Positions 4,953 through 24,447 of a DNA stretch of 34,438 nucleotides are shown one piece after another. The notes beneath the pieces were generated by a model. It was not told the origin of the DNA, did not search any database, and was given only the letters and a program-made list of their open reading frames with translations. Origin of the DNA: an uncultured Anaerolineae bacterium (lineage in GTDB: Bacteria > Chloroflexota > Anaerolineae > Anaerolineales > Villigracilaceae); contig CAIVSQ010000102.1 in the NCBI GenBank assembly GCA_903908605.1, forward strand, positions 1 through 34,438, read 5' to 3'. Numbering within the stretch: the first letter of the stretch is position 1; every line of letters begins with the position of its first letter. The position numbers and the translations under genes are program-made.

Positions 4953-6461
4953 TTAGGGCAGGTTGGTTGTGCTCATCAGGTAACGGTCACATTCACGTGC
5001 TGCGCCGCGGCCTTCGTTAATGGCCCACACAACCAGGCTTTGCCCACGGCGCATATCGCCTGCGGCAAAAACGCCCGGCCGGTTGGTGCTGAACTGGCCG
5101 TACTCGGCCCGGGCGTTGCTGCGTTCATCCCGCTCAACTGAGAGGGCACCCAGGATGGTTTCTTCGGGTCCGAGGAAACCCATGGCCAGCAGGACGAGCT
5201 GGGCGGGGTGGACTTGTTCGGTGCCGGGGATTTCGCGTGGGCCAAGGCGTCCGTTGGCGTCCCGGACCCATTCGACGTCGATGGTGTGTACTTCTTTCAC
5301 ATGGCCATTTTCATCACCGACAAAACGCTGGGCGGTGACGGAATAACGGCGGGGATCTTGCCCGTAGAGGGCTTTGAATTCTTCCTGGCCATAATCGAGC
5401 TTGTAGACCTTGGGCCATTCGGGCCAGGGGTTATCGGACTGGCGGGTGTCGGGCGGGCGGTTGAGAATTTCCAGCTGCAGCAGGCTGCGGCAGTTGTGGC
5501 GCAGGGCGGTGCCGACGCAATCTGTGCCGGTATCGCCGCCGCCAATCACCACGACGTCTTTGCCTTCGGCGCTGAGGAAGGGGTACCCAAAGCCGCCCTG
5601 CTCTTGGGCGACTGGCTCGTGCTCATTCAGCAGGTGACGTGTGTTGCCGTGCAAAAACTCCATCGCAAAGTGAATGCCATTTAGCTGGCGGCCTTCGAGC
5701 GGCAGGTCGCGGGGACGGGTGGCACCGCCGCACAGCACGACGGCGTCAAACTCGCTGGCCAGTTTTTCGGCCGGGTAGTTTTTACCGACCTCGGTGTTGG
5801 TGATAAATTTGACGCCCTGGGCAGCCATCAGGTCAACACGGCGCTTGACCAGTTTCTTATCCAGCTTCATGTTGGGGATGCCGTAGACCAGCAACCCGCC
5901 GATGCGGTCTGAGCGCTCAAAAACGGTGACAAGGTGCCCGGCGTTGTTGAGCTGATCGGCGCAGGCCAGGCCGGCTGGGCCGGAGCCGACCACCGCCACC
6001 TTTTTACCGGTGCGGGACATGGGCGGGGTGGCTTTGATCCAGCCTTCTTCAAAACCTTTTTCGATGATGGCGTGCTCGATCGATTTGATGGTGACCGGGT
6101 CGGCATTCAGGCCGAGGGTGCAAGAGCCTTCACAGGGGGCCGGGCAGACACGGCCGGTAAATTCGGGGAAATTGTTGGTCTTGAGCAGGCGTTCGAGGGC
6201 CTGGTGCCACTGGCCTTTGTAGACCAGGTCGTTCCATTCGGGGATCAGGTTGTTGATTGGGCAGCCGGAGGCCATGCCGCTGATCAATGTGCCGGTGTGG
6301 CAGAATGGCACGCCGCAGTCCATGCAGCGAGCGCCCTGGGTCTTTAGCTTTGTTTCAGGGTAGTGCAGGTGGAATTCCTGCCAGTCTTGAATGCGTTCGG
6401 TCACTTCGCGGTCGGGGGGCAGTTCACGCCCAAATTCCATAAATCCAGTTGGTTTCGCCAT
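4953..6461 (-). CDS. gltD: glutamate synthase small (beta) subunit
   Basis: This 502-aa subunit takes electrons from NAD(P)H through FAD and passes them to GltB. The N-terminal ferredoxin-like part has the cysteines expected for [4Fe-4S] clusters: C46, C49, C54, and C106, C110, C114 in a CxxxCxxxC pattern. An FAD-binding dinucleotide fold begins at [13 protein letters not shown] (about 157-169). A second fold for NADPH is marked by [14 protein letters not shown]. The C-terminal [17 protein letters not shown] is the usual FAD-contacting end. The start at 6461 is preceded by GGAAGGTG. It follows gltB by 12 bp, a classic gltBD operon. Length is normal. Confidence 0.96.
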
Positions 6462-6473
6462 TGTTCACCTTCC

Positions 6474-9400
6474 TTAGTTGCCGCTTACGCGGGTGCGGTC
6501 ATTTTTGTTGAGTTCAAAAGCCGCCATGACGGCGTCATCACCGCTCAGACCGGAGGCCTCGACTTCTTTGAAGGCTTCCAACATGCGCTCATAATCCTTG
6601 GGGATGACGCGCACGAACCTGGGCAGGCAGGTGTTCCATTTTGCGAGGATGCGCCTGGCAAGCGGGCTGCGGGTGGCATCGGCGTGGCGTTGGATCATGG
6701 CTTTGACCTGGGCGATTTCGTCCGGTTCGAGCAGGGATTGGAGGGTGACCATTTCGGTGTTGCAGTGGCTGGCGAAGAGGCCTTTTTCATCGTAGACGTA
6801 GGCGATGCCGCCAGACATGCCAGCCGCGAAGTTTCGCCCGGTGGCGCCGAGCACAACCACGCGCCCGCCGGTCATGTATTCGCAGCCGTGGTCGCCTACG
6901 CCTTCCACCACGGCATGCAGGCCGCTGTTGCGTACGCAGAAACGTTCGCCGGCCTTGCCGTTGATATAGGCCTGGCCACTGGTGGCGCCATAGAAGGCCA
7001 CGTTGCCGATGATGACACTTTCTTCGGGGGTAAAGGTGGATCCGTTGGGCGGGTAGACGATGATTTTGCCACCCGAGAGACCCTTGCCAACATAATCGTT
7101 TGAATCGCCCTCGAGCAGCAGGGTGAGGCCGTTGGGGATAAAAGCGCCGAAGCTTTGGCCGGCCGAGCCCTTGAATTGCAGTTGAATGGTGTCTTCGGGC
7201 AGGCCCTGGGCCCCATAGGCGCGGGTGATTTCGCTGCCTAGGATGGTGCCCACCACGCGGTTGACATTGCGGATGGGCAGCTCTGCGCGCACGGGCTGAC
7301 GGTTTTCGAGGGCGGGCTTGCACAGGTCCAGGAGGATGCGGTTGTCGAGTGATTTCTCCAAGCCGTGGTCCTGTTTGGTTTTGGTCCGTGGGCCGCCTTC
7401 ATCATCGCTATCCATCTGGTAGAGCATTTCGGAGAAGTCGAGGTTGCGGGCTTTCCAGTGGGTGATGGCGGCGTTCATTTCCAGGCGGTCGGAACGCCCG
7501 ACCATTTCATCGATGCTGCGGAAGCCGAGTTTGGCCATCCATTCGCGCATTTCCTGGGCGATGAAGTGCATAAAGTTGACCACGTGCTGGGGGTCGCCGC
7601 TGAATTTGGCGCGCAGTTCGGGGTTTTGGGTGGCTACGCCGACGGGGCAGGTATCCAGATGGCAGACACGCATCATGATGCAGCCCAGGCTGACCAAGGG
7701 TCCGGTGGCAAAGCCGAATTCCTCTGCGCCGAGCAGGGCGGCAATGACCACGTCGCGCCCGGTTTTGAGCTGGCCATCGGTCTCCACCACGATCCTATCG
7801 CGCAGGTTGTTGAGGACCAGGGTCTGGTGGGTTTCGGCCAGGCCGAGTTCCCAGGGCAGGCCGGCGTGCTTGATGCTGCTGATGGGTGAGGCGCCTGTGC
7901 CGCCGTCGTACCCGCTGATTAAGACCACGTCGGCATGGGCCTTGGCTACACCGGCGGCGATGGTGCCGACGCCCACTTCGGAGACCAGCTTGACATTGAT
8001 GCGGGCTTTCTGGTTGGCGTTCTTCAGGTCGTAGATCAGTTCGGCCAGGTCTTCAATTGAGTAAATATCGTGGTGCGGGGGCGGTGAGATCAGCCCGACG
8101 CCAGGGGTGGAGTGACGCACTTTGGCAATCTCGGGATAGACTTTGCGCCCGGGCAGCTGGCCGCCTTCGCCGGGTTTGGCGCCCTGGGCCATCTTGATTT
8201 GAATCTCTTCGGCATTGACCAGGTATTCACTGGTCACTCCGAAGCGGGCCGAGGCGACCTGCTTGATGGCGCTTTTCTTTGAATCGCCGTTGGGCATGGG
8301 TTTGTAACGTTCGGGATCTTCGCCGCCTTCGCCGGTGTTGCTTTTGCCGCCGATGCGGTTCATGGCGATGGCCAGCGCTTCGTGGGCTTCTTTACTGATG
8401 GAGCCATAACTCATGGCACCGGTTTTGAAGCGCTTGCAAATGGAGTCGATTGATTCAACTTCTTCGAGCGGTACCGGGCCGGCGGTGAACTTGAACTCCA
8501 GCAGGCCGCGCAGGGTGCCGGGGCGAGTGGTTTGCTCGTCGATCAGGCGCGAATATTCTTTGAATAACTTGAAATTATTGGTGCGGACGGCCTGCTGCAA
8601 GAAATGGATGGTCTTGGGGTTGAACTGGTGATATTCGCCATCCTGGCGCCACTTGTATTCGCCGCCGGTGGCAAGGGTATTATCGTTGGAGGGCCGTTTG
8701 GGGAAACCATCGGCGTGGCGCATACCGGCTTCGCGGGCGATGATGTTCAGGTCAATGCCACCGATGCGCGAGGGGGTCCAGGTGAAATATTTATCGATCA
8801 CGCTTTGGTGAATGCCGAGGGCCTCGAAGATTTGAGCGCCGCAGTAGCTTTGCACGGAGGAAATGCCCATCTTGGAGATGGTCTTGACTACCCCCTTGGT
8901 GGCGGCCTTGATGTAATTTTTGACCGCTTGTTTGTAATCCAGGTTGGTGAGCTGGCCCTGTTCGATCAGCCCTTCGAGGGTGTCAAACACCAGGTAGGGG
9001 TTGATGGCGGTGGCGCCGTAGCTAATGAGGGCGGCAAAGTGATGGACTTCGCGCGGTTCACCGCTTTCGAGGATCAGGCCGATCTGGGTACGGGTGCCTT
9101 TGCGGATAAGGTGGTGATGCAGGCCGGAGAGGGCCAGCAGGGAGGGGATGGGGGCGTGTTCGCGGTCGATGCCACGATCTGAGAGGATCAGCAGGTTGAA
9201 GCCGCGCGCAATGGCGGCATCGGCTGCCTTGAAGACCTCTTCGAGGGCTTGCTCGAGGCCCTGACCGCCCGCGCCGGGCTTGAAGAGGATGGGCAGGGTG
9301 GTGCTGACGAAGCCGGGGATGCGGCTGTGGCGTATCTTGCCGAGGGCCTGGTTGGTCAGGAAGGGGAAGTCCAGCCGGATCTGGTGGGCGCTTTGCGGGG

Positions 9401-11108
9401 TGGGTTTGAGCAGGTTGCTCTCTGCGCCCACCATCACCTCGGTGGAGATGACCAGTTCTTCGCGGATCGAGTCGATCGGTGGGTTGGTGACCTGGGCGAA
9501 AAGCTGTTTGAAGTAATTAAAGAGCAGTTTGGGTTTGGTGGAGAGCACGGCGGGGGGGGCGTCATTGCCCATAGCGCCGATCGGCTCAATGCTGTCCTGG
9601 GCCATGGGCGTGATGATCATCTGCACATCTTCGGTGGTGTAGCCGAAGGCCTTCTGGTGGGTGATCAGGCTGGCTGGGTCGGACGTCAGCATGTTTTCGG
9701 GCTTGGGATCGGCAACATCCTGCAGGCGCACCTGGTATTTGTTGAGCCAGTCACGGTAGGGGAATTCGCCGGCGATGCGGTGTTTGAGTTCAGCATCGTC
9801 AATGATGCGGCCTTCGGAGGTATCGACCAGCAGCATGCGGCCGGGTTCGAGGCGGCCTTTGTAGGCCACTTTTTCGGGGGCAATTTCGAGCACGCCCACT
9901 TCGGAGGCCAGGATAAGCTGGTTGTCGGTGGTGACGTAATAACGTGAAGGGCGCAGGCCGTTGCGGTCGAGCATGGCGCCGATCAGGATGCCATCGGTGA
10001 AGCCCATGGCGGCCGGGCCGTCCCAGGGTTCCATCAGGTTGGCGTGAAATTCATAAAAAGCGCGTTTCTCGTCATCCATGGCATCGTGGTGTGACCAGGG
10101 TTCGGGGATCATCATCATCATGACGTGCGGCAGTGAACGGCCGGCCAGCAGCAGGAATTCGAGGCAGTTATCGAACATGGCGGTGTCACTGCCGTCCTGG
10201 CGGATGATTGGCAGGATTTTCTTCATGTCGCTGCCGAATAATTCGGATTCGAACATGCTTTCCTGGGCGCGCAGCCAGTTGATGTTGCCGCGCAGGGTGT
10301 TTATTTCACCATTGTGAATGATATAGCGGTAGGGATGGGCGCGTTCCCAGGTGGGGAAGGTGTTGGTGCTGAAGCGCGAGTGCACCAGCGCCAGCGCGGT
10401 TTCCATATCGGGTTCGGATAGGTCGAGGAAATAGCCTGCGAGCTGGTCAGAAACCAGCATGCCCTTGTAGATGAGGGTTTTGTGTGAAAGGCTGGCGATA
10501 TAAAAATACTCACCGCTTTCATACAGGCCGCCGTAACGGATCTCATTTTCGGCGCGTTTACGGATGACATACAGCTTGCGCTCAAAGGCCATGTCATCCG
10601 GCAGGTCGGGATTGCGGGCTACGAAGATCATGCGCATCTTGGGTTCGGCGCGTTTGGCCATGCTGCCGATGGCGGCGTTGTTGACCTTGACGGTGCGCCA
10701 GCCGAGCACGCGCTGTCCTTCGGAGGCGACGATTTTCTCAAGTTGGATCTCGATTGCGCGGCGGTGGTTGACATCCTGCGGCAGGAAGATCATGCCGACC
10801 CCGTAATAGCCGGGTTCGGGCAGGCTGAAGCCATGCCGTTCTGCTTTGCGCTTGAGGAACTTGTGCGGGACCTGCATCAGGATGCCGGCGCCGTCGCCGG
10901 TATTTACCTCGGACCCGCGCGCGCCGCGATGGGTGAGGTTGTTTAATATGGTCAGGGCTTGCCGGACGATCTGGTTGGATTTGGTGCCATCAATATTGAC
11001 GACCATGCCAACACCGCAAGCATCGTGCTCATAGTGCGGGTTATACAGCCCTTGCTTGGGCGGGGTGCCGGGCAGGTTCATGCCCGCATCGCTGAAAAAG
11101 TTATCCAT
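6474..11108 (-). CDS. gltB: glutamate synthase large (alpha) subunit
   Basis: This 1544-aa enzyme converts glutamine plus 2-oxoglutarate to two glutamates. The N-terminal glutaminase domain has its nucleophile at C31 in HDACGVG, so about 30 residues would be removed as a propeptide. The central and FMN-binding synthase domains include [10 protein letters not shown] and PGEGGQLPG. The [3Fe-4S] ligands appear in [16 protein letters not shown]. The C-terminal GXGXG beta-helix follows (for example [14 protein letters not shown]). The start at 11108 has a strong site, GAAGGAGAAAATAGG. It is the first gene of gltB-gltD-small protein. All expected domains are present and length is typical. Confidence 0.97.
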
Positions 11109-11582: not shown

Positions 11583-14285
11583 ATGAATGATTTTTCGGAT
11601 GGAAGCACGCAGGCTTCGCGGCCCAACCTTGCCCGGCGCAGGGCACATTGGGTGCGGCGTGATTTGATTCTGTGGGATGTGCAGGGTTCATCCTGGCATT
11701 CATATGCGTTGTTTGCCTCGCCGGTTGCGGGGTTGGAATTACGGGATGGCAGGCTGCAGGGTGGCATTGAGATTCCGCTGGAATTTGATCCGGCCGGACC
11801 GGATGAAGAAATCCGCTTAAAATTTCCACACCTGGCGCATTATTCGGCTTTGCGGCTGCCGGCGGCGGCGCTGGGGCAGGTGGCGGAAGCGCTGCGCTGC
11901 CAACTGGCGATCACCATACGGGATGGCAATGGCTGGTTGATGGATGTGTGCGGGTTGCAAATTCCGGGTGTGATGGATGATTTATACACCTACCCGGGGG
12001 CGCTTGGCCCGGTGGTAGAGCATGGTAAACCGGTCCTGCGGGTGTGGGCACCTAGCGCGCGCTCTGTAATGCTGCGGATGTTCGATAGTGTTCCGGTCAG
12101 CCCGCGTGGGTCGTTGGCGGCGCTGCCGTGCAGTGTGTGCCAGCCGATGCAGTTTGACCAGGCCACCGGTGCCTGGAGCCTGGCGGGGGATTCTTCCTGG
12201 CTGAACCGCTTTTACCTTTATGAAGTTGAAGTGTATGTGCCGCTGACAGGGCGGATTGAAAAGAACCTGGTGACCGACCCGTATTCGATCAGCCTGTCTA
12301 CGAACAGCCGTTTCAGCCAGTTTGTGGATCTGCGCAGCCAGGCGTTGATGCCACCCGGCTGGGACCAGCTGCGCAAGCCAGCCCTGGATGCGCCGGAGGA
12401 TATTGTGCTGTATGAGCTGCATGTCCGCGACTTCAGCGCTTATGACAGTGGGGTGCCGGCCGCCTGGCGGGGAACCTTTAAAGCTTTCTGCGCGCCGGAT
12501 TCGAATGGGTTGAAGCATCTCAAGCGCCTGGCGGAAGCAGGTCTGACGCACATTCACCTGCTGCCAACCTTTGATATTGCAACGATCAACGAAGACAAGA
12601 GCAGCTGGCCGGTGGTGGATGATGCCACTCTGTTAGCCCTGCCGCCCGATTCGGACCAGCAGCAGGCTCTGATTGGCCAGATCGCCGAGCAGGACGGTTT
12701 CAACTGGGGCTATGATCCGTATCATTACACCACGCCTGAGGGTAGTTATTCCACCGATCCGCATGGGTCGCAGCGGGTGCTTGAATTCAGACAGATGGTG
12801 CAGGCGCTCAGCCAGGCCGGGCTGCGCGTGATTATGGATGTGGTTTACAACCATACCAATGCCAGCGGAATGGAAGAAAGATCGGTGCTGGATAAGGTGG
12901 TGCCGGGCTATTATCACCGGCTGGATATGGATGGTAATGTGGAGCAGAGCACCTGTTGTTCCAACACGGCCAGCGAGCACGCCATGATGCGAAAATTGAT
13001 GATTGATTCAATGGTCACCTGGGCGTGCGAGTACAAGGTGGATGGTTTCCGCTTTGACTTGATGGGACATCACATGCTGGCTGATATGAAGGCGGTGCGC
13101 GATAGGCTGGCGGCCCTGACCCTGGAGAAGGACGGGGTGGATGGCAAAAGTATGTATATATATGGCGAGGGTTGGAACTTTGGCGAGGTTGCCTATAATG
13201 CGCGCGGGGTCAATGCCACCCAGCAGAACATTGCCGGTACGGGTATCGGCGCGTTTAACGACCGGCTGCGGGATGCGGTGCGGGGTGGCAGTGCCTTTGG
13301 AAACTTCTTTGAACAAGGTTACGTCACCGGCCTGTATTTTCGTCCCAATCAGGCGGAGTGGCGGGATGCAGAGCAACAGCGGGTGCACTTAAACGAAATC
13401 AGCGATTGGATCCGGGTCACCCTGGCGGGTAACCTGCTGGATTACGAACTGGTGCGTGCCAATGGTGACAAGGTGCCGGCGCGCTGGATTTCTTACGGTG
13501 GTGGTTCGGCGCCTTTTGCGTTGGACCCACAGGAAAATGTGATCTACGTTGCCGCGCATGATAATGAAACGCTGTGGGATATCCTGCAGGTTAAGCTGCC
13601 GGTGGAGTTGGAGCTGGCCGAAAAGGTGCGGTTGAATAACCTGGCGCTTAGCCTGGTGGCTTTTAGCCAGGGTGTGCCGTTTTTCCACGCGGGTGACGAT
13701 ATGCTGCGGTCCAAGTCGCTTGATCGCAATTCGTATAACTCGGGTGATTGGTTCAACCGGTTGGATTGGACCTATGAGACCAATAACTGGGGCGTTGGTT
13801 TGCCTGCCGAGGGGCGTGACCGGTGGGATGTCTTTCGACCGCTGCTGGGTAACCCGGCGCTCAAGCCTGGCAAGGCCGAAATTTCGTTCAGTGCGGCGGT
13901 CTTCCGTGAATTGCTGCGCATTCGCAAGAGCTCGCCGCTTTTCCGCCTGCGCACTGCGGCTGCTGTGCAGCGTTCGGTCTCTTTTCTCAATAGCGGTTAC
14001 CAGCAAATTCCGGGTTTGATTGTGATGAACCTGGTGGATGTGGATAACCTGGACCCGCTTTACCAGGCGATTGTGGTGCTGTTTAACGCGTCGCCGGAGG
14101 TGGTTAATTTCTCGGATGCTTCTTTTGTCAATCTCAAGCTAGAGCTGCATCCTGTGCTGGCTGGTTCGGTGGATGACATTATTCGCCGGGCGGATTTCGA
14201 TACTTCCAAGGGTGAGTTCTGCATCCCTGGGCGCAGTACGGCTGTGTTTGTGCTGCGCAAGAAGGTTCGGGCGAGCCGCAAGTAG
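11583..14285 (+). CDS. pulA: type I pullulanase (alpha-1,6-glucan debranching enzyme)
   Basis: This 900-aa GH13 enzyme cleaves alpha-1,6 branches in glycogen, amylopectin or pullulan fragments. N-terminal beta-sandwich modules (about 25-260) include a CBM48-like segment near VLRVWAPSARSVML. The type I pullulanase motif FNWGYDP is at 373-379. Catalytic regions are D419-VVYNH, DGFRFD with nucleophile D492, YGEGW with acid/base E529, and HDNE with D660. A C-terminal beta domain follows. No signal peptide is visible, so it should act in the cytoplasm on stored or imported glucans. The start at 11583 is preceded by TGGGGATGG. It stands alone on the plus strand, divergent from gltB. A glycogen debranching enzyme (GlgX) is the nearest alternative, but the FNWGYDP motif and the length favour pullulanase. 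Confidence 0.9.
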   Translation: MNDFSDGSTQASRPNLARRRAHWVRRDLILWDVQGSSWHSYALFASPVAGLELRDGRLQGGIEIPLEFDPAGPDEEIRLKFPHLAHYSALRLPAAALGQVAEALRCQLAITIRDGNGWLMDVCGLQIPGVMDDLYTYPGALGPVVEHGKPVLRVWAPSARSVMLRMFDSVPVSPRGSLAALPCSVCQPMQFDQATGAWSLAGDSSWLNRFYLYEVEVYVPLTGRIEKNLVTDPYSISLSTNSRFSQFVDLRSQALMPPGWDQLRKPALDAPEDIVLYELHVRDFSAYDSGVPAAWRGTFKAFCAPDSNGLKHLKRLAEAGLTHIHLLPTFDIATINEDKSSWPVVDDATLLALPPDSDQQQALIGQIAEQDGFNWGYDPYHYTTPEGSYSTDPHGSQRVLEFRQMVQALSQAGLRVIMDVVYNHTNASGMEERSVLDKVVPGYYHRLDMDGNVEQSTCCSNTASEHAMMRKLMIDSMVTWACEYKVDGFRFDLMGHHMLADMKAVRDRLAALTLEKDGVDGKSMYIYGEGWNFGEVAYNARGVNATQQNIAGTGIGAFNDRLRDAVRGGSAFGNFFEQGYVTGLYFRPNQAEWRDAEQQRVHLNEISDWIRVTLAGNLLDYELVRANGDKVPARWISYGGGSAPFALDPQENVIYVAAHDNETLWDILQVKLPVELELAEKVRLNNLALSLVAFSQGVPFFHAGDDMLRSKSLDRNSYNSGDWFNRLDWTYETNNWGVGLPAEGRDRWDVFRPLLGNPALKPGKAEISFSAAVFRELLRIRKSSPLFRLRTAAAVQRSVSFLNSGYQQIPGLIVMNLVDVDNLDPLYQAIVVLFNASPEVVNFSDASFVNLKLELHPVLAGSVDDIIRRADFDTSKGEFCIPGRSTAVFVLRKKVRASRK

Positions 14286-14560: not shown

Positions 14561-15451
14561 TCAGGCTACCAGGGCAATCGAAGAGATCACAATGGCCAAC
14601 CTCTGTTCCACCTGCATCAGTAGTGATTCGAATAAAGGTTCTTGCCCTTCCGCTATCGCCATTTCCAAATCTTTTGCCACTGTGCGCAATTCATCTGCGC
14701 CAACCGTGCCAGCCAGCCCTTTAAGTGTGTGTGCAAGGCGTCGGGCAATTTCAAGGTCATTGACCTGCAAGGCTGCCCGGATTGCTGTTCCATCGTGGGC
14801 ATGGTCAGCGTGGAACAACAATAACAAACGTCGATACAGTTTTTTGTTGTTGCCCAAGCGAACCAATGCACTGACCATATCGATTGATTCGAGCGTCGCT
14901 GGCAGGTGATCCAGTTCTTCGGGGGTTTCGGGAGAAGGTATCAGAACCGGAATACCCTCTTTTGGGGCACCGGCTGAAGGACTGTTTTTCTCAGGTTCAG
15001 CGTTGTTCTGAAAGGATGGTTGGCCCATCCAACGCGCCAACACGCTGGCAAGCTGGGCTATATCGACCGGTTTGGAAACATAGTCACTCATACCGGCTTG
15101 CAACGCCTTCTGGTTGTCGCCATTCAGGGCGTTCGCGGTCATGGCAATGATTGGGATTTGATTGGGATTTGAGCGCAGTTGATTGACTCGTTCCACTGTG
15201 CTATTCTGCTGAGAAATTAATTCAGCTTCTGGAACTAATCCGCGGATTTGCGCGGTGGCCTGGTAGCCATCCATGCCAGGCATCTGGATGTCCATCAAAA
15301 TGGCATCGTAGACGTTCTGCCTGGCCATCTGAACTGCTTGTTCACCGTCGTCGGCTACTGACACCAGCAAGCCCATTTGTTGCAGGATCTCGGCTGCCAC
15401 CAATTGGTTGATTTCGTTGTCTTCCACCAGCAAGACATGTTTGCCACGCAA
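14561..15451 (-). CDS. REC-HPt C-terminal segment of the hybrid kinase, out of frame with it
   Basis: This 296-aa segment holds a complete receiver domain (residues 4-140: LLVEDNEIN acidic pocket, phospho-acceptor D54 in MDIQMPGMDG, KPVD lysine). A linker follows, then a histidine phosphotransfer domain with H241 in AHTLKGLAG. It is the natural continuation of the upstream kinase. The kinase frame meets it after a -1 shift at an A5 run (plus-strand T run 15477-15481), and the bridging sequence KNISAETLEILRGKHVLLVED reads smoothly. The only local start is a TTG at 15451 with no clear ribosome site, so independent translation seems unlikely. The most probable reading is one gene of about 1760 aa with an indel or sequencing error. 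A real split would leave a separate REC-HPt relay protein. Confidence 0.8.
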   Translation of the reverse strand: MRGKHVLLVEDNEINQLVAAEILQQMGLLVSVADDGEQAVQMARQNVYDAILMDIQMPGMDGYQATAQIRGLVPEAELISQQNSTVERVNQLRSNPNQIPIIAMTANALNGDNQKALQAGMSDYVSKPVDIAQLASVLARWMGQPSFQNNAEPEKNSPSAGAPKEGIPVLIPSPETPEELDHLPATLESIDMVSALVRLGNNKKLYRRLLLLFHADHAHDGTAIRAALQVNDLEIARRLAHTLKGLAGTVGADELRTVAKDLEMAIAEGQEPLFESLLMQVEQRLAIVISSIALVA

Positions 15452-18400
15452 TATTTCCAGCGTTTCGGCGGAGATATTTTTGTGCGCGGGCCGGGAGTGG
15501 GTGTTAGGGATTGATGCCCAAATACCTGCATAACGGCGTCAAACAATTGTGAACGGGTGATGGGTTTTAGCAGGCTGCCATTCAATCCTTCAATGCTGGC
15601 TATTAGGTGTACATCTTCCTGGTTGCCAAGCAGAATAATCGGCGTATTTGCCAGACGTATATCCTGCCTGATACATCTGGCGGCTTCCAACCCATCCAGG
15701 CCACCAGAAAATTTCCAGTCCATTAGCACCAATCTAAAAGGGTCATCCCTGGCTTTTTCCAGCATTAGTAAACCTTCTTCAGCGCACTGGGCAGTAGTTA
15801 CATTGAAAGCGAAGGGATCCAATGCGCTTCGTAGAAATTCCTGCGTGGCAATGTGCTGATCCACCACCAGGACGCGCAAGCCTGTCAGTTCTGGCACAGA
15901 CTGTGTCACGTCGAAGGAACTTGCGCGGTTAATTGTCGTGATGATTTCGGGCTGCTTTTCTAATGCAATGCTGCATGTAAATACAGACCCAACCCCGAAT
16001 TGACTCTCGGCCCAAATATCGCCACCCATCAATTTCACCAACCTTTGGCTGATCGTCAGCCCCAGGCCTGTACCGCCATACTTGCGGCTGATGGAGCTGT
16101 CTGCCTGGCTGAATGGTTGAAACAGGCGGGACATTTGTTCTTCCGTCATTCCAATGCCCGTATCGCGTACTGAAAATTCAAGCACGGCGGAGGTGTTTTG
16201 CGCGGGGTCGTCACGTTGCTCGGCGAGCTTGATCTTGAGGACCACCTCGCCGACCTGGGTAAACTTGATGGCATTGCTTACCAGGTTGAGCAAGATTTGG
16301 CTCAACCGCTGTGGGTCACCGATCAGCAGGCGTGGAACGTTTACTTCGGTGTGGAAAACCAGTTCCAGGTCCTTCCCATGCGCGCGTGCTGCCAGCAAGT
16401 CGGATATACCGCGCAGCACGTCGTCCAGACTGAAATCGACCCGTTCGAGAGTCAATTTTCCGGCTTCGGTTTTTGAGAAATTCAGAATGTCATTGATGGT
16501 TGCCATCAATATTTCGCCAGAGTACTGCAAATGATTCAAGTAATCGCGTTGTTTTTCGCTCAATTCAGTTTGCAGCGCCAGGTAGGTCAGACCCATTACC
16601 CCATTTAATGGGGTACGGATTTCGTGGCTCATGACTGCCAGGAAGTCGCTCTTTGCGCGGTTGGCAGACTCGGCTTGTTCTTTGGCAATTTCCAATTCAG
16701 AAGTGCGTTCTTTGACAAGTTCTTCCAAATGATCGCGGTATTGCATTAATTCTATTTCGGTCTCTTTTTGATCTTCGGTAAGGCTTAACAGTGTCAAACG
16801 GGATCGTTCTGCATCTATCAGCAGGCGTTGTAATTCAATTTGGGCTGAATTGATCTTGTCTTCAGCTTCCTTGCGTTCGGTGATGTCTACAAATGTAATG
16901 GTGGCTGACTGTAATTGCCCTGTGTCATCCCATGTGGGCAAACCGTTCACAAGAACCCAGCGCACCTTTTCCCCTTTGGCCAGGAAGATTCCCAAAATGA
17001 AATTTTGCAAAGATTGATGAGTTGAGATGACCTGGTTGATTGGATATTCAGCCAACGGCATCGCGGTTCCATCCGCACGTAAAAAGGACCATTGTGGGTC
17101 CACGGCTTGCTTTCCGAGCATTTGATCCGGCGTCATGCCCAGCAATTCACAGGCTCGTTTATTAAAGTAGAGGATGGATGTATCTGGGGCATGGGTAACC
17201 ACACCAGAGCTAAGATTATCCAACAATTCAATGAATTTCTTTTCGCTGACGCGCAGCGCTTCTTCCACCTGCTTAAATTCATGAATGTCAGTGCATGTAC
17301 CAAACCACTTGATAATAGTGCCCTTCTCGTTCAGTAAAGGTATGCCACGGATCAGCCACCATGTATAGATGCCATCCGCACGGCGCAGCCGACATTCGAT
17401 TTCATACGTGCTGCCATTTTGGGTGGCATTTTGCCAGGCATCCCATGCACGCTGCTGGTCATCGGGATGGAACGGTTTATTCCAACCATGCCCGTAACTC
17501 TCTTCCAATGATAGCCCGGTATAATCCCCCCAACGTTGATTAAAGTAATCAGTCCAACCATCCGGACGAGTAGTCCAGACGATTTGTGGCATGGACTCAG
17601 CCAAAACATGGAATTCATTTTCGCTTTGTTGCAATGCTTCTTCCGCCGCCTTGCGCACGGTGATATCGGCATGAGAAACTAAAACAGTACCGTCTTTCCC
17701 TTGCAGCGGTACCACCTGCATGGTGAACCAATGCTTTTCACCGTCAGGGCCATGACAGGGATATTCCTGGCTGAAAAAAGTCAAGTCGCCGTGCTGGACT
17801 TTGCGGACACCATCTGACCCCTCTTGTGCCAGCATCGTATCGCCCCAATCTTCGCTGTACTGCACAAAATAATTAGCTCCAACGCCCCATTTGCTTTCAT
17901 TTACTCCGCCGTTTTCAATAGCAAAATTTCGCCACTTCTCGTTGATAGCCAGAATGACTCCATCGGGATCCACCACTGCTATATGGGCATCCACGGAGTT
18001 GAATATCCGCTGGTTGAAGTCGGCTTGCTCTGCCAATTCTTCTTCCGCCCGCTTCCGTTCTGCGATATCCCAGGCGAAATCGGCCAGGGATGTTACCATT
18101 TCGATATCCTGTTGATCATAATTGGTCGGCTTGTTGCCTACGCCAAGTATAGCCACTATCGTCTCTCCGCGCATTACAGGGACGACCAGCTCTCTTATGA
18201 TTGGTGCATGACCCTCTGGCAGCCCCTTGCGGTGTGAAAGTGCTGGATAATCATTGTGAATGACAGGACGTTTTTCGCGAACGGAGTCCACCCATACACC
18301 CGCCTGGCTTATTGGATAATGAGAGCCGGCAGGCTCAGCCTTGCACATATGTTGAATCGTATTGGTGGACCATGCCTGCAGCGCTAGCGTCATTTGGTCT

Positions 18401-19869
18401 GGTTTCAGAAAATGGAAAAAGCCGACCTGGCTGCCGGTGAGTGCTTCCGTTTCGTCGAGGGTGATGCGTAACAGTTCTTCCAGCGAGCAGGTATTTGCCA
18501 TCTCAATAATACGGCTGCGCGCCGACATTACCGCCTCTGATCTTTTTCGCCTGGTGCAGTCTCGACAGAAACTGATGAGTTTGCCACCATCCAACTCTAA
18601 AAACGTCACAGATATTTCAACATCAATAACGTTACCATCTTTACATCGGTGATGAGTCTCAAATAGTTCTGAGCCATTCTCAATAATTCGCTTGATCCGC
18701 TCCGTGGTTTCAGTGGGTGTATCGTCGATATCGATGTCACCAATCGATAAATCCAAAAGCTCGGCTTTGCTATATCCTGACATGGCGCAGTAGGCTTCAT
18801 TTGCATCGGTGAGCCTGCCTTCACGGTTCACAACCAGGAAGCCATCTGCTGTTGTCCGAAGAATGGTGTGCAAATAATGTTCGCTCGCGCGCAGCGCTAA
18901 AGTTTGCTGGCTGAGATTTCGGAACATCAGGCTGAGTGGACGCTGCAAGCCGATCCGTATCACAGCGAGATAGATCAAGAAAAATGCAGTTAGTTTTCCG
19001 AAATGGCCTAATAAATTGGAAAAATCATACACGCTAACATAAAATGTGAACGCAAGTTCCGAAAGAATGGTGGCAACGGTGGCAGACAGCAACAACCCTA
19101 ACACCGGGCGATCAAAATGCTGGCGTTTGTTCCATAACAATCCTAACGAAAACAACAGGAAGAGACAGATGAGGTACTCGCTGTTTATTTTGAAAGGGGT
19201 CAGGCCCAGTCCTTCAATATAGCAGACCGGGAACTGCCGCAAGAAAATGAGCATCAGCAGCAGTAAGGTGATGACTGCGTAAATTGCAAGCAGCACGTAC
19301 TCCAAATTCTGGCGGGTTTTTTCTCGTGGATTGATTGTTGGCGAGTTGGAAAGCGGGGGTTTAGCTGACAAGAAGAAAAGAGTGAACAACATGGACAAGC
19401 TTTGCAGGTAACGGGCCGCTATCCACAATTGAGTGGGCAGATTTGAGTCGTAGCCTACAAAAATGTTCATTCCCTTGTAAGCCAACATATGGACCAGGTC
19501 CAGAATGCTTGCTGCAGCTAAAGCAATCCCAAGCCCCAAAAGATAACGATTGTTCAGCCAACGTCGCGCATTCCACATCAGCAGGGCCATGCTGAAACCG
19601 ATGACGATGCTGGATAATTCGACCAGCGCATGAAACAATAAATAACTGATCAGGCTGGTTAAATACAATCCCAGCACAGCCAATCCGGCAGTGAAAATGA
19701 TCAGCACAGTTCTGAGAAAGTGCGGTTCAGAAGCCGGTTGCTCAGGCTCTGGGAGTGTGGATGGGAAAAGCTCTCCGAAACCAGCCTGCCAGGTTTCAGG
19801 ATTGGGGGTTTTTGTTGAGTCACGATGACTTTCAGTGGGGTCATGGTGTGATTCGTGCTTTGTTGTCAT
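15355..19869 (-). CDS. large membrane hybrid histidine kinase (MASE3-PAS-GAF-PAS3-HK-REC)
   Basis: The frame is 1504 aa, of which about 1463 are genuine; the last 40 or so read out of frame after the A5 run at 15477-15481. In order: a MASE3-like multi-helix membrane sensor (52-310, with LPTQLWIAARYLQSLS), PAS (326-440), GAF (455-603), three more PAS (about 617-740, 750-865, 875-1000), a coiled coil (1000-1070), HisKA with H1082 in MSHEIRTPLNG, and an HATPase domain (N-box about 1195-1201, DTGIG, GGTGLGL). A first receiver (1331-1450) has D1384, but its acidic pocket reads VVDQH instead of the usual paired acids. The ATG overlaps the stop of the upstream sensor gene (ATGA) and is preceded by GGGAGGG, indicating translational coupling. 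REC2-HPt follows in the -1 frame. The ligand and output are unknown. Confidence 0.9.
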   Translation of the reverse strand: MTTKHESHHDPTESHRDSTKTPNPETWQAGFGELFPSTLPEPEQPASEPHFLRTVLIIFTAGLAVLGLYLTSLISYLLFHALVELSSIVIGFSMALLMWNARRWLNNRYLLGLGIALAAASILDLVHMLAYKGMNIFVGYDSNLPTQLWIAARYLQSLSMLFTLFFLSAKPPLSNSPTINPREKTRQNLEYVLLAIYAVITLLLLMLIFLRQFPVCYIEGLGLTPFKINSEYLICLFLLFSLGLLWNKRQHFDRPVLGLLLSATVATILSELAFTFYVSVYDFSNLLGHFGKLTAFFLIYLAVIRIGLQRPLSLMFRNLSQQTLALRASEHYLHTILRTTADGFLVVNREGRLTDANEAYCAMSGYSKAELLDLSIGDIDIDDTPTETTERIKRIIENGSELFETHHRCKDGNVIDVEISVTFLELDGGKLISFCRDCTRRKRSEAVMSARSRIIEMANTCSLEELLRITLDETEALTGSQVGFFHFLKPDQMTLALQAWSTNTIQHMCKAEPAGSHYPISQAGVWVDSVREKRPVIHNDYPALSHRKGLPEGHAPIIRELVVPVMRGETIVAILGVGNKPTNYDQQDIEMVTSLADFAWDIAERKRAEEELAEQADFNQRIFNSVDAHIAVVDPDGVILAINEKWRNFAIENGGVNESKWGVGANYFVQYSEDWGDTMLAQEGSDGVRKVQHGDLTFFSQEYPCHGPDGEKHWFTMQVVPLQGKDGTVLVSHADITVRKAAEEALQQSENEFHVLAESMPQIVWTTRPDGWTDYFNQRWGDYTGLSLEESYGHGWNKPFHPDDQQRAWDAWQNATQNGSTYEIECRLRRADGIYTWWLIRGIPLLNEKGTIIKWFGTCTDIHEFKQVEEALRVSEKKFIELLDNLSSGVVTHAPDTSILYFNKRACELLGMTPDQMLGKQAVDPQWSFLRADGTAMPLAEYPINQVISTHQSLQNFILGIFLAKGEKVRWVLVNGLPTWDDTGQLQSATITFVDITERKEAEDKINSAQIELQRLLIDAERSRLTLLSLTEDQKETEIELMQYRDHLEELVKERTSELEIAKEQAESANRAKSDFLAVMSHEIRTPLNGVMGLTYLALQTELSEKQRDYLNHLQYSGEILMATINDILNFSKTEAGKLTLERVDFSLDDVLRGISDLLAARAHGKDLELVFHTEVNVPRLLIGDPQRLSQILLNLVSNAIKFTQVGEVVLKIKLAEQRDDPAQNTSAVLEFSVRDTGIGMTEEQMSRLFQPFSQADSSISRKYGGTGLGLTISQRLVKLMGGDIWAESQFGVGSVFTCSIALEKQPEIITTINRASSFDVTQSVPELTGLRVLVVDQHIATQEFLRSALDPFAFNVTTAQCAEEGLLMLEKARDDPFRLVLMDWKFSGGLDGLEAARCIRQDIRLANTPIILLGNQEDVHLIASIEGLNGSLLKPITRSQLFDAVMQVFGHQSLTPTPGPRTKISPPKRWKYCVANMSCWWKTTKSTNWWQPRSCNKWACWCQ

Positions 19870-22800
19870 TCGCCCTCCCTTGGTGGATCCAGATTGACAC
19901 CATTGACGCTGGCAAAGCGCGGTGGTTTTCCAGCTTCAATCAGCAGCCTGTTGATCTCGCTTTTTAACTTTAATATCCGATCCTCGCGGCCCTGGGTTAT
20001 ATTTTGCCAGCGACGAAGTTCTTCGAGTTGTTTATTTAGCTGCTCTTCGGTTTGTTTTCGCTCGGTGATGTCGTGCATTACCAGGATGGCACTTTTTATC
20101 TGCCCATCCACTTCCACTGGAGCGAGAGAAGATAGGTACCAGCTGTTTTCTCCAAAAGACCCCAACCCCTGGGTTTCAAACTCTTCGGGTTTGCCGTTGA
20201 GGAAAACCTGTTCCAGCTTCTGGCGCATGGTGGGATGAAACTGAGCAGGAGTCCAAGCATAAAACTCTTCACCGATCACATCATTCGATTCAAGACCTGG
20301 TAACATCCGGCTGATATAGAGAATGCGTCCGTGGGGGTCAACTTCAATGATGATAGCCGGAGCATGTTTTGTGATGGTTTTCAGGCGGGCTTCGCTCTCG
20401 CGTAGGGCGATTTCGGCTAATTTCTTTTCGGTGATGTCGGTAAAGACGGTGACAAAACGATTATTGACTGGTTGGGATGTGGAAATGTATTTCCACCTAC
20501 CCGTGTGGGCATAATACAATTCAGTGATAATTTCATCACTTTTATTCAGATGTTCCTTCCAAAAGCTATTGATGTATTCCGAAGACATCTGGTAAGCATC
20601 GGTGGCTGTTTTCCCTACCACCCACTCGCGCGGAGCCTCAGAGTGTTTCTCGTAAGCCGGATTGACCTCCAGGATGCGGTAATCAACAATTTCACCGTTC
20701 CCATCGAAGATAAACTCATTCAATGCCATACCTTCTTGCATGGTGTTGAACACATTCCGAAAATTTTCTTCGCTTGTTTGAAGTGCTTCATCTGCCAGTT
20801 TGCGTTCGCTGATGTCAATACAGATCCCGGACATACGCTGAGGTACTCCGTGGTCATCATAAGTTGTATTGCCCAGGGCATTTATCCAGCGAATTTCGCC
20901 GGACGGCAGGACGATTCGATAATCATTTTCAAGCAGAGTATGCTCGCGAATGGCATCGCTAATTCGATCCTCGGCGATTTGGACGTCTTCGGGATGGATT
21001 ACCTTGCGCCAAATATCGAAGGTGGGGGTCGTGTCTGGATCCAGGCCAAACAGGATGAGAAATTCAGGGGACCATGTGAGCTGGCCGGTGGTCATGTTCC
21101 AGTCCCAAACTCCTGCTTTTGAGGATTTTTGCGCAAAGGACAGGCGCTCATTGGCTTGAAGAAGGGCTTCTTCTGCCAACTTACGTTCGGTGATGTCTTG
21201 AACGGTGCCGTTACTCCTGATGGGTTTGCCTGTCTTGTCAAACTCTATTCTACCTATTGCGGATATCGTGTGAATTGAACCATCTTTATGGACGATGCGG
21301 TATTCAAGAGCAGGTGAACTCCCATCTAATAAATTGCTATTCATACTATTTGTGAAGAGCTCAATATCGTCGGGAAAAATCACTTTTAGCATAGACTCCG
21401 GCTTAGCATCATGAGTGTTGGGGTCGATGTCAAACACGCGATACATCTCTTTTGACCAGCTGACTGTATTTGATCGCATATCCCATTGCCAGCTGCCAAT
21501 GTGAGAAATACGTTGAGCATCTGCCAGGTTTTCTTCGCTTTTTCGGAGCGCTCCTTCCGCCAATTTGCGTTCGGTAATGTCTTGAGCGATGCCCGTTAGA
21601 ACGGTGGGCTTGCCGTCCTGGTCGAAAATGGTTGTGCCGCTTTTTGCCCAAATATGATGAATAGTTGAATCTGGCAGGATAATTCGGTATTCAATCGGTT
21701 CATTTGCGAGGTTGGCAGCGTTGGAAGGCAGAACCAAGTGTAAATCATCAGGGTGAATTACGCTTTTGACCACATCCCCCAGCCGACCTGTAAAGGTATC
21801 CTTTTCGATACCGAATATGCGATACATTTCATCTGACCAGGTAATCTCACCTTTACTTACATCCCATTTCCAATTTCCAATATGCGCTGTTGACTGGGCC
21901 TTTTTTAATACCAATTCTGAAAGACGGTATTTATTCTCGCTCTCCTGCAAGGCCTGTTCAGCCTGTTTGCGCGCGGTGAAGTCATGGATAAGGGCCACGA
22001 AATAGTCCACTGACTGGTCAGGGCGGCGCACGCAGTGCACAACCAGGTTGGTAGCGATGCTGTGACCATCCTTGTGAAGAAAGCGTTTTTCAAGGGTATA
22101 GCCATCGATTTCGCCGGCAATGACCCGGTTAAATTGGACAAGATCGGCGGGCAGATCATCCGGATAGGTCAGTTCTGTCCAGCTCATCTGCATCAATTCG
22201 GCTTTTTGATAACCAAGCAAGTCACACAGGGTGGGATTGACGTCGATCCAGCCAGCATCTGGCGATGTGATGGCGCGCCCGGCCAGGGGGAGATTAAAAT
22301 AACTGCGGAAGCGTTCTTCACTCTGGCGCAAAGTTTCTTCGACTTGCTTACGCTCGGTGATGTTTTCTACTACGACCATGATTTTATTGATCTTGCCTTC
22401 CGGATTCATTAAAGGCACAGTTCGATAGTATTGGTATTGGTCGTTGATAAATAGTTCAAATTGTGTTTCAGCGCCATCAAATGTTTTGAGATAATGATCT
22501 CTGACAAGCGGCGCATGTTCGCCAAAGACCTGTTCCAAAGTCAGACCCACAAACTGGGCTGGGTCCAGGTTCTGCTTCTTGAATTCTTGCCCGGAAGTAA
22601 AGCCGATCGTCAGGTCTTTATCGATAATGGAAACATAGGAATTTGGATAATTTTGCGCCACTGTATGTAGAAGTGCAGCGTTTTCTTTCAATGCTTCTTC
22701 TGCCTGCTTACGCTCTTGAATCTCGATCTCCAGGGACTTTGTGCGCGCAGCCACCTGGCGTCTAAGCGAAAACGACCATAACAGGAGGATGGACCCAATC

Positions 22801-23747
22801 AATAGAAATGCAAGAACAATCCCACCCAAATATTTTAGAAATATTTCATTCGTGACACCAACCGGTTCCAAGGCCCCGAACCATTTTTTGTAAATTTCGT
22901 CATACTGCCCTGTGGCTTTGACAATGCTCATGCCCTGGTTCAAACGTTCCATGACTGCCTGATTTCCATTTCTTACTGCAAAACTGAATGGACGATTGTA
23001 AGCTTCCACTACCACTGGCGATGGGCCGAGATTGGTAAGTTTCAAATCCCGGATGAGCGCCAACCCGACCAGTTTGGGCATGAGCGCTGTATCCCCGTTT
23101 CCAGATGCCAGCATTCGCAAAGCTTCTGGTAAGCTGGAAACCAGGATCAGCTGCTCTGACTTGATGGAGGCCAGTGACTGTAGATAATCATGGGCCTGAT
23201 CACTCTCCATAACGAGGATCTTTTTCCCGGGCAGATCGTCCATGGAGCGAATTGGGCTGGCGTCTTTGCGCGTAAAAAAGGCGTCGTAGGCATTTGTGTG
23301 CGGAGGCGAGAAATCATATAGTTTATCGCGCTCTGCGGAATAGGCCATCATCGGCAGAAAGTCAATCTGGCCGTTATCCAGCGCGTGACGAGCATTGTCC
23401 CAGGTGTCGACCTTGATTTCGAGCTTGAACCCCATCACCTTAGCTACCGTTTGCATCAAGTCCACGCTGAATCCATCGGGCTGGCCATCTTGATTCACGA
23501 AGGTGTAGGGGGCATAATTATCAATGATGATGGTTTTCAAGATGGGCTCATTGGCGAATGAACCCATCCCTGCCGTGGCAGCCGGTTGAAGAGCAAAAAC
23601 ATGTAAAAGTGAGGGAAAAGTAAGCAGGCTGGCTATCATCAGTAAGAGCAAAAGAATACTTGCTCTTGTGGCGCGATTTATTGTTGAGCCCACGCCCCCG
23701 GGTTTTAAGCGAAGAAATTTCGGAATAGCAGCACTGCAATTCTTCAT
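19866..23747 (-). CDS. periplasmic-binding-domain sensor with seven PAS modules and no kinase
   Basis: This 1293-aa protein has an N-terminal hydrophobic helix (about 30-50), an extracytoplasmic SBP_bac_3-like Venus-flytrap domain (about 70-290: FSVDLMQTVAKVMGF, FLPMMAYSAERDKLYDFSPP), a second membrane helix (306-327), then seven PAS/PAC modules (about 355-465, 475-595, 615-725, 742-854, 870-980, 992-1105, 1115-1230), most ending in DITERK-like linkers. A terminal coiled coil follows (EELRRWQNITQGREDRIL). There is no HisKA, HATPase, GGDEF, EAL or other output domain. The N-terminal layout matches BvgS/EvgS sensors. I chose the ATG at 23747 because GGAG stands 6 nt before it; the upstream ATG at 23825 has no ribosome site. 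Its stop overlaps the kinase start, so the two proteins probably form one receptor complex. Confidence 0.88.
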   Translation of the reverse strand: MKNCSAAIPKFLRLKPGGVGSTINRATRASILLLLLMIASLLTFPSLLHVFALQPAATAGMGSFANEPILKTIIIDNYAPYTFVNQDGQPDGFSVDLMQTVAKVMGFKLEIKVDTWDNARHALDNGQIDFLPMMAYSAERDKLYDFSPPHTNAYDAFFTRKDASPIRSMDDLPGKKILVMESDQAHDYLQSLASIKSEQLILVSSLPEALRMLASGNGDTALMPKLVGLALIRDLKLTNLGPSPVVVEAYNRPFSFAVRNGNQAVMERLNQGMSIVKATGQYDEIYKKWFGALEPVGVTNEIFLKYLGGIVLAFLLIGSILLLWSFSLRRQVAARTKSLEIEIQERKQAEEALKENAALLHTVAQNYPNSYVSIIDKDLTIGFTSGQEFKKQNLDPAQFVGLTLEQVFGEHAPLVRDHYLKTFDGAETQFELFINDQYQYYRTVPLMNPEGKINKIMVVVENITERKQVEETLRQSEERFRSYFNLPLAGRAITSPDAGWIDVNPTLCDLLGYQKAELMQMSWTELTYPDDLPADLVQFNRVIAGEIDGYTLEKRFLHKDGHSIATNLVVHCVRRPDQSVDYFVALIHDFTARKQAEQALQESENKYRLSELVLKKAQSTAHIGNWKWDVSKGEITWSDEMYRIFGIEKDTFTGRLGDVVKSVIHPDDLHLVLPSNAANLANEPIEYRIILPDSTIHHIWAKSGTTIFDQDGKPTVLTGIAQDITERKLAEGALRKSEENLADAQRISHIGSWQWDMRSNTVSWSKEMYRVFDIDPNTHDAKPESMLKVIFPDDIELFTNSMNSNLLDGSSPALEYRIVHKDGSIHTISAIGRIEFDKTGKPIRSNGTVQDITERKLAEEALLQANERLSFAQKSSKAGVWDWNMTTGQLTWSPEFLILFGLDPDTTPTFDIWRKVIHPEDVQIAEDRISDAIREHTLLENDYRIVLPSGEIRWINALGNTTYDDHGVPQRMSGICIDISERKLADEALQTSEENFRNVFNTMQEGMALNEFIFDGNGEIVDYRILEVNPAYEKHSEAPREWVVGKTATDAYQMSSEYINSFWKEHLNKSDEIITELYYAHTGRWKYISTSQPVNNRFVTVFTDITEKKLAEIALRESEARLKTITKHAPAIIIEVDPHGRILYISRMLPGLESNDVIGEEFYAWTPAQFHPTMRQKLEQVFLNGKPEEFETQGLGSFGENSWYLSSLAPVEVDGQIKSAILVMHDITERKQTEEQLNKQLEELRRWQNITQGREDRILKLKSEINRLLIEAGKPPRFASVNGVNLDPPREGE

Positions 23748-24447
23748 GAGTTGCTCCACGGTTGGGCCCAATCCGGGTATATCGTTCTTGTTGTGATGCG
23801 CTTGTATATTGAAAATAGATTGCAACCGGTGGTTTCGCTTTTTGATATATCAGGACCAGCAGCACCAATTCAGACCATTAAAAGTTTACATCATTTTATT
23901 AATGACAAATAGACCATCCCCCTGGGTAGTCGACTTTATGCTGTTTTGGATTTCGCAATGATGTTTTTTTACTATACATCACCGTATCGATTTAAGCAAT
24001 AGAAACATTAATCAGCTAGATGCAAGCCGACGTGAAAAATGACCACCCGACCAGTGAAAAAGTGATCGACAAGCTTACGGGTGAAGCTGAAACGATAAAG
24101 CCCAGGCTTTTACACCTGGCACAGGCTTGCGCTAATTGTCTGTAAAGGGGTTTTGGTTTAGCTGATGCATTGTAACGCTTACGCAGTTCTTGCTGCTGAC
24201 CTTGCCCCGATGGATGGCCTGGCCAACCCGGTTTGGGGAAACTGATAAAGTATTACCTGGTTACGATAAGGTTTTGATCGGTCTGCGCGAAGGGATTGGT
24301 TCAAAGCCATGAGATAGATGCGGTGGCGGGTGGAGGGCTGGTTTGCTGTCAATGCGGAAAGACCCAAAGCATGAAAAGCGATTATAAAAATGCGGCGGGG
24401 TTGCCTTCGTCAGCTTTACGCTGTGTTGGGCAATCTTGAGGTTTTGA
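23748..24447. other. 700-bp stretch without a convincing gene
   Basis: It contains the upstream region of the sensor/kinase operon and the space before the small membrane protein gene. A 41-codon open frame (24020-24145, plus) starts MQADVKNDHPTSEK but has no ribosome site and no recognisable family. A short inverted repeat TGATGT/ACATCA spans 23959-23981. The part around 23880-24010 is AT-rich and probably carries the operon promoter, but no clean -35/-10 pair can be assigned. No RNA gene was recognised. Confidence 0.5.

Follow-up and report, generated by a model that had tools for sequence, protein, structure and literature searches.

A kinase-less PAS receptor with a conserved C-terminal tail and a motif-matched partner kinase form a candidate split sensor kinase in Anaerolineae

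Introduction

Unorthodox sensor kinases of the BvgS/EvgS type carry a solute-binding protein (SBP) domain, PAS, HisKA/HATPase, receiver and HPt modules in one chain. Other kinases are controlled in trans by accessory sensor proteins, as in the LuxP-LuxQ, TorT-TorS and NosP-NahK systems.

Here we describe two adjacent genes in a 34,438-nucleotide stretch of DNA from an uncultured Anaerolineae bacterium (contig CAIVSQ010000102.1). This stretch, hereafter the window, is the entire contig C102 of a 5.77-Mb genome in 612 contigs. One gene encodes a receptor with seven PAS modules and a conserved C-terminal tail, and the other encodes a hybrid kinase with a conserved motif, NLxED, in the coiled coil just before its HisKA domain. 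We consider it reasonably probable that the window encodes a split sensor kinase in which the tail of the receptor docks on the coiled-coil stalk of the kinase at the NLxED motif. As in BvgS and EvgS, a periplasmic SBP domain (here the SBP_bac_3 Venus flytrap of the receptor), PAS, HisKA/HATPase, receiver and HPt modules belong to one pathway; in contrast to BvgS and EvgS, receptor and kinase are separate proteins, the transmitter is not in the same chain as the flytrap, and the kinase has MASE3, PAS and GAF inputs of its own. The predicted control of a kinase by a separate sensor protein is shared with LuxP-LuxQ, TorT-TorS and NosP-NahK, although to our knowledge none of those accessory proteins has a seven-PAS array ending in this tail.

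Two described coiled-coil elements are also relevant. The S-helix (Anantharaman et al. 2006, PMC1592074) is a coiled-coil element that lies between two domains and bears an ERT signature; the proteins to which it carries signals are kinases, cyclases and those of the HD-GYP type. The kinase LvrB, which is controlled by a receiver (REC) domain, is switched by coiled-coil formation of the helix before DHp (PMC13269768); its input is in the same chain, so that LvrB is a precedent for control through the stalk and not for docking in trans.

Results

The receptor gene occupies positions 19866..23825 of the reverse strand, and its open reading frame (ORF) encodes 1319 residues from a TTG or 1293 residues from an alternative ATG at 23747. 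Searches against Pfam (E-value threshold 0.001) placed an SBP_bac_3 (Venus-flytrap) domain at residues 99-317, corresponding to 22875..23531 of the reverse strand as computed from the match, and matched several PAS families; membrane segments were placed by hydropathy at residues 51-80 and 326-355, and seven DITERK-like PAS-end linkers agree with seven PAS modules. No HisKA, HATPase, receiver or other output domain was found in the receptor ORF by Pfam at this threshold. The initial annotation had described just such a protein, in which a solute-binding domain is combined with two membrane helices and seven PAS modules but with neither transmitter nor output domain, and it was borne out. So was the four-nucleotide overlap that it had reported, in which the receptor stop and the kinase ATG share ATGA at 19866..19869 (reverse strand). 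The individual domains of both window proteins are ordinary. The initial annotation had suggested that the PAS array docks on the kinase, with the PAS/GAF region as the place to look; the conserved elements that we found, neither of which it mentions, are instead the C-terminal tail of the receptor and the coiled-coil motif just before HisKA in the kinase.

The tail, or 'plug', comprises receptor residues 1258-1304 (19914..20054, reverse strand) and was delimited by single-sequence and profile searches. It is a helical stretch of about 47 residues after the last PAS module, EELRRWQNITQGREDRILKLKSEINRLL...PPRF, and is followed by 15 residues and the stop. A single-sequence search found it in 4 of 150 same-class genomes, at five places, each near the end of a kinase-less ORF. 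With a profile, the tail was found in 41 of 400 genomes (28 of 225 genera) of the home phylum, Chloroflexota, and in sets of genomes drawn from the phyla of named relatives and centred on Desulfobacteraceae (37 of 247), Phormidium (2 of 146), Marinobacter (33 of 120) and Mucilaginibacter (9 of 118); a five-row profile found it in 31 of 148 genomes of a set centred on Nitrospirae MYbin3. Of the 78 tail matches in the first neighbourhood set, 68 lie no more than 40 residues from the end of the ORF, and a kinase profile found a kinase inside only 3 of 76 tail ORFs. The ten tails that do not end their ORF comprise three followed by 100 residues (L185, L188, L189), three followed by 188 residues (L205, L206, L208), an internal tail in L186 and another in L204, and two fusions (L209, L211). 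From its position and from Pfam counts, we read the 188-residue extension as a V4R domain. (In L185, L188 and L189 the tail is followed by a KaiB-like domain, matched by NCBIfam in L185, and the next gene encodes not a kinase but an HD-GYP protein that has the motif.)

Among 40 proteins with strong tails, Pfam matched PAS (PF00989) in 33, SBP_bac_3 in 8, PocR in 5 and HATPase_c in 4, with GAF, HAMP, receiver or Cache domains in others; thus, the two-gene layout is not special to receptors with an SBP domain and seven PAS modules. The first downstream proteins (30 in number) contain HATPase_c in 13 cases, HisKA in 12, V4R in 5, HD_5 in 3 and CheR in 1; several of the V4R-size genes, as well as the CheR gene, are themselves directly followed by a kinase gene. 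In five loci (L186, L197, L204, L229, L232) the tail gene is separated from a motif-bearing kinase gene by a small, V4R-like gene (4-vinyl reductase domain); in L122 a CheR-like methyltransferase gene (7562-8401, reverse strand) stands between the tail gene and the kinase with a four-nucleotide overlap on each side.

The motif block, or 'socket', was located by alignment and profile at kinase residues 1018-1047 (16729..16818, reverse strand), in the coiled coil before HisKA. In the window it reads IDAERSRLTLLSLTEDQKETEIELMQYRDH, an R..LL[SN]..ED form in which the E of ED lies 50 residues before the phospho-acceptor His; the common motif in genes downstream of tails, likewise before HisKA, is roughly [RQ]RAxLN[IL][LM]ED. 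Partners include HD-GYP proteins as well as kinases. A 30-residue profile was built from 17 partner genes. At 8 bits or more it matched 27 of 33 kinases located one or two genes after a tail gene (members of the profile included), 6 of 43 other kinases in tail loci and none of 23 control kinases. The six others include two tail partners overlooked by our neighbour rule (L196, L224) and a tail-kinase fusion (L211). At a lenient threshold, at which the score of L120 is weak, 29 of 41 strong tail ORFs are followed within three genes by a same-strand gene that has the motif; one more is a fusion and three lie at contig ends.

The two elements also co-occur in genomes. Among the 400 home-phylum genomes, the motif was found in 12 (8 of 225 genera), all of them within the 41 genomes that have the tail (hypergeometric P = 3e-13; by genus 2e-8, and 1e-5 minus the profile genera, with no other correction for phylogeny). 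Thirteen of the 14 motif ORFs in this set, the window's included, have a tail gene as their neighbour, either immediately or across a single small gene; rescanning did not reproduce the fourteenth (G068:C60). Of the 247 genomes in the Desulfobacteraceae-centred set, 19 have the motif, and 15 of these are within the 37 that have the tail (6e-11, or 5e-8 minus the four profile genomes, again with no other correction for phylogeny).

Two phyla that had been used for neither profile provided 49 stretches with 56 tail matches, 26 terminal and 30 internal. Taking as following genes up to three, ending at the first gene on the opposite strand, the motif was found after 17 of the 26 terminal tails and a kinase after 18; in six cases the next gene is on the other strand. 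Of the 30 internal tails, 27 are followed by a motif or a kinase in the same chain (a motif of at least 5 bits in 17, a kinase in 21). In these phyla the motif reached at least 5 bits in 16 of 19 adjacent kinases, 15 of 21 fused kinases and 3 of 17 others, and at least 8 bits in 15 of 19, 10 of 21 and 3 of 17, respectively. Those three others (L323, L335, L338) are in loci where the gene next to the tail gene is on the other strand. The natural fusions keep the order tail, linker, motif, kinase, where the linker either spans about 20-70 residues or is longer and can be read as a linker with an added PocR-like domain; the two-gene systems thus resemble this chain divided after the tail and before the motif. 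Several kinase-less proteins (L323, L325, L326, L330, L334) have a tail, then 190-235 residues, the motif and a second tail, and kinase-less proteins of L186 and L204 also have two tails with a motif between; judged by their layout, these proteins look like relays.

Tail and motif also covary at one pair of positions. A motif partner was assigned to 48 of 76 tail ORFs. Where the tail has a Trp at its aromatic position, the residue after ED in the partner is Q, E or R in six of six families (the window, L120, L009, L011, L185, L198); where it does not, the residue after ED is A, L, F, M or I in all 33 families and polar in 0 of 33 (Fisher P = 3e-7, with near relatives merged into families by hand and phylogeny uncorrected). 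The Trp families come from the home phylum and, in the case of one genome, from the Desulfobacteraceae-centred set, and an HD-GYP protein is among their partners. In the later phyla, the Trp tail of L358 is paired with EDH, and in the listed F-type pairs ED, or the residues equivalent to it, is followed by A, L or I.

Counted from the ED of the motif, the phospho-acceptor His follows at 25, 32, 39 and further steps of seven, or at 43, 50, 57 and likewise onward. Two of the seven heptad phases thus account for 61 of 62 cases, a count that takes in several copies per protein and relatives; the odd case (L320) resembles a PAS stretch. The two phases are four residues apart, which is the size of a coiled-coil stutter (PMC6798134). 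An AlphaFold2 model of a fusion fragment from L350, made with 11 aligned sequences (mean predicted local distance difference test score (pLDDT) 75, predicted template-modelling score 0.55), has a tail helix at residues 2-36, a stretch at 45-58 with confidence below 50, and a single helix at 59-141 that runs from the motif region through DHp. A single-sequence model of a fragment from L211 was poor (mean pLDDT 46.5). If the stretch between tail and motif is a flexible linker, then the signal in the fusions would have to cross from tail to stalk by contact, and the same reasoning may apply between the subunits of the window.

The tail should not be equated with the S-helix. The two are alike as coiled-coil elements with kinases and HD-GYP proteins as targets, which for the tail are predicted ones, and the window kinase has an ERT stretch between its motif and its His. 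However, the window tail is without the ERT signature, tails usually end their protein (as in the 68 of 78 above), and the NLxED block lies upstream of ERT; we therefore rejected this identification. In Pfam searches of the window proteins at an E-value of 0.001, no match had its best stretch on the tail or the motif. The matches listed by NCBIfam over these stretches include whole-kinase or PAS models and no named tail or motif family, and we found no description of either element in the titles and abstracts of open-licence papers. (Note that the tail may resemble the start of some HisKA domains, in the manner of a degenerate DHp helix.)

The partner kinase is encoded by an ORF at 15355..19869 (reverse strand) in which Pfam matched MASE3, PAS, GAF, HisKA, HATPase_c and a first receiver, after which the sequence goes out of frame; a second receiver and HPt, the remainder of the kinase, are in another frame at 14561..15451 (reverse strand). 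The initial annotation had placed all of these domains in one protein, and this holds up to the first receiver, but the second receiver and HPt lie outside the ORF. MASE3 scored 263.5 bits (PF17159; curated cut-off 31), and the NCBIfam model MASE3_PAS_HK (NF047874) scored 396.8 bits, below its whole-protein cut-off of 560. Related kinases in L121 (1741 residues) and L120 (1561 residues) run from the first through the second receiver to an HPt-like end in a single frame, which argues that the frameshift, whether real or an assembly error, is specific to the copy in the window or to how it was assembled. The kinase gene of L120 is preceded by one for another tail protein, with a receiver-like N-terminus replacing the SBP domain.

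The genome of the window has a second pair in L009 (G000:C128; 4801-9464, reverse strand), where a 553-residue ORF with the tail at its end overlaps the kinase gene by four nucleotides and the kinase has a matching motif (QSRRALLSMVEDQK). A further copy of the window's own SBP-receptor pair may be split over L014 and L121, as is suggested by the receptor in L014, which breaks off at the point where the tail in L121 starts; no exact overlap of at least 25 bases was found between the ends of these two contigs of one genome. We also noted a sub-class in which a tail reading 'ERLAELERFQKLTVGRELKMIELKKEIEELK' is followed by a compact kinase with one or more copies of the motif at its N-terminus, in several cases as 21-residue tandem repeats (L191-L194, L213, L216, L217, L223, L224, L236); its members come from the home phylum as well as from the sets centred on Nitrospirae, Desulfobacteraceae and Phormidium. 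Elsewhere in the window are a pullulanase-like gene (11583-14285, forward strand) and glutamate synthase-type Pfam content (4953-11108, reverse strand), the genes of which we take to be those of large and small subunits; no link between these neighbours and the receptor pair was seen.

Discussion

Computation directly shows the tail and the motif, how they pair in different phyla and covary, their fusions, and the heptad register that the motif keeps with the catalytic His; the matched tail/motif pair is well supported. The original interpretation is supported in part. Its proposal that the two genes make one sensing unit gains from the conserved tail, the matched motif, co-occurrence in genomes, residue covariation and natural fusions; its physical side is what we infer, namely docking, stoichiometry, ligand and direction of regulation. 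In the mechanism that we propose, the flytrap and PAS modules of the receptor would sense a periplasmic solute and cytoplasmic cues. The receptor, which has no enzyme of its own, would use its C-terminal helical tail of about 47 residues as its output. The kinase encoded by the next gene would present the NLxED motif on the coiled-coil stalk that leads into the DHp helix, and the tail, by docking on this stalk, would pass the state of the receptor to the kinase, which may add its own MASE3, PAS and GAF inputs. In intact relatives, phosphate would then pass through REC and HPt.

Several observations weigh against this proposal. Our motif profile was derived from partner genes, such that the adjacency counts are partly circular, and the significance figures are uncorrected for phylogeny beyond the counts by genus. 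For eight of the 41 strong tail ORFs, none of them at a contig end, the three genes that follow lack the motif. Among the 247 genomes, no more than 10 of 23 motif ORFs have a tail gene immediately upstream or with a single gene between, and the tail was not matched in 4 of the 19 genomes that have the motif. Weak tails, those with higher E-values, often precede unrelated genes, such as one in L218 that by eye resembles an aminoacyl-tRNA synthetase gene, and Trp tails without a recognisable partner motif occur in L198 (its first tail), L212, L214, L218-L220 and L359. Moreover, the structure models cover single chains.

We entertained the idea that tail and motif are each a homodimerisation coil of its own protein, that they travel together as one inherited type of operon, and that the real contact between the proteins is elsewhere, through PAS-PAS, membrane or periplasmic interactions. 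Both elements are coiled-coil-like, the motif keeps heptad phase with DHp as any feature of the stalk would, and co-inheritance alone could yield the co-occurrence and part of the covariation. However, the match of Trp with a polar residue holds over partners with different outputs, HD-GYP included, and the fusions retain the tail and then the motif as consecutive elements, with about 20-70 residues of linker, or a linker and a PocR-like domain, between them. We thus regard separate dimerisation coils as an unlikely account of the pair. It is more doubtful still that the receptor is merely co-expressed with the kinase and acts on some other target, be it another kinase or an enzyme: the strong tails without a nearby motif gene and the opposite-strand neighbours in 6 of 26 terminal cases from other phyla would fit such an arrangement, but the genes overlap by four nucleotides in the window, 17 of 76 tail ORFs overlap their first downstream gene by four or one nucleotides, and 13 of 14 home-phylum motif ORFs adjoin a tail gene. 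That the receptor is what decay or mis-assembly has left of a BvgS/EvgS-type kinase after loss of the transmitter, as one might suppose from relatives in L015 and L016 with a kinase in the ORFs of the receptor-matching region and from a contig that already has one frameshift, is highly improbable and largely refuted by conservation of the tail, which is present in genomes of several phyla and ends the ORF in 68 of 78 matches; the start-stop coupling in the window is also intact.

Beyond the docking of tail on stalk in the window, we find the case evenly poised for a broader idea, that several phyla share a modular plug-and-socket wiring code. In such a code, the C-terminal tail on sensors would fit the NLxED socket on kinases and HD-GYP enzymes, specificity would be set in part by the choice of Trp or Phe, and relays of the form plug-sensor-socket-plug could chain signals or swap sensors across genes. 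PAS proteins that lack an output domain are hard to assign to a pathway, and with a recognisable tail and a matching motif their kinases could be assigned to them by sequence alone. If correct, these ideas would provide a natural, exchangeable connector for sensor building and a testable case of allosteric signalling between polypeptides through a coiled-coil stalk.

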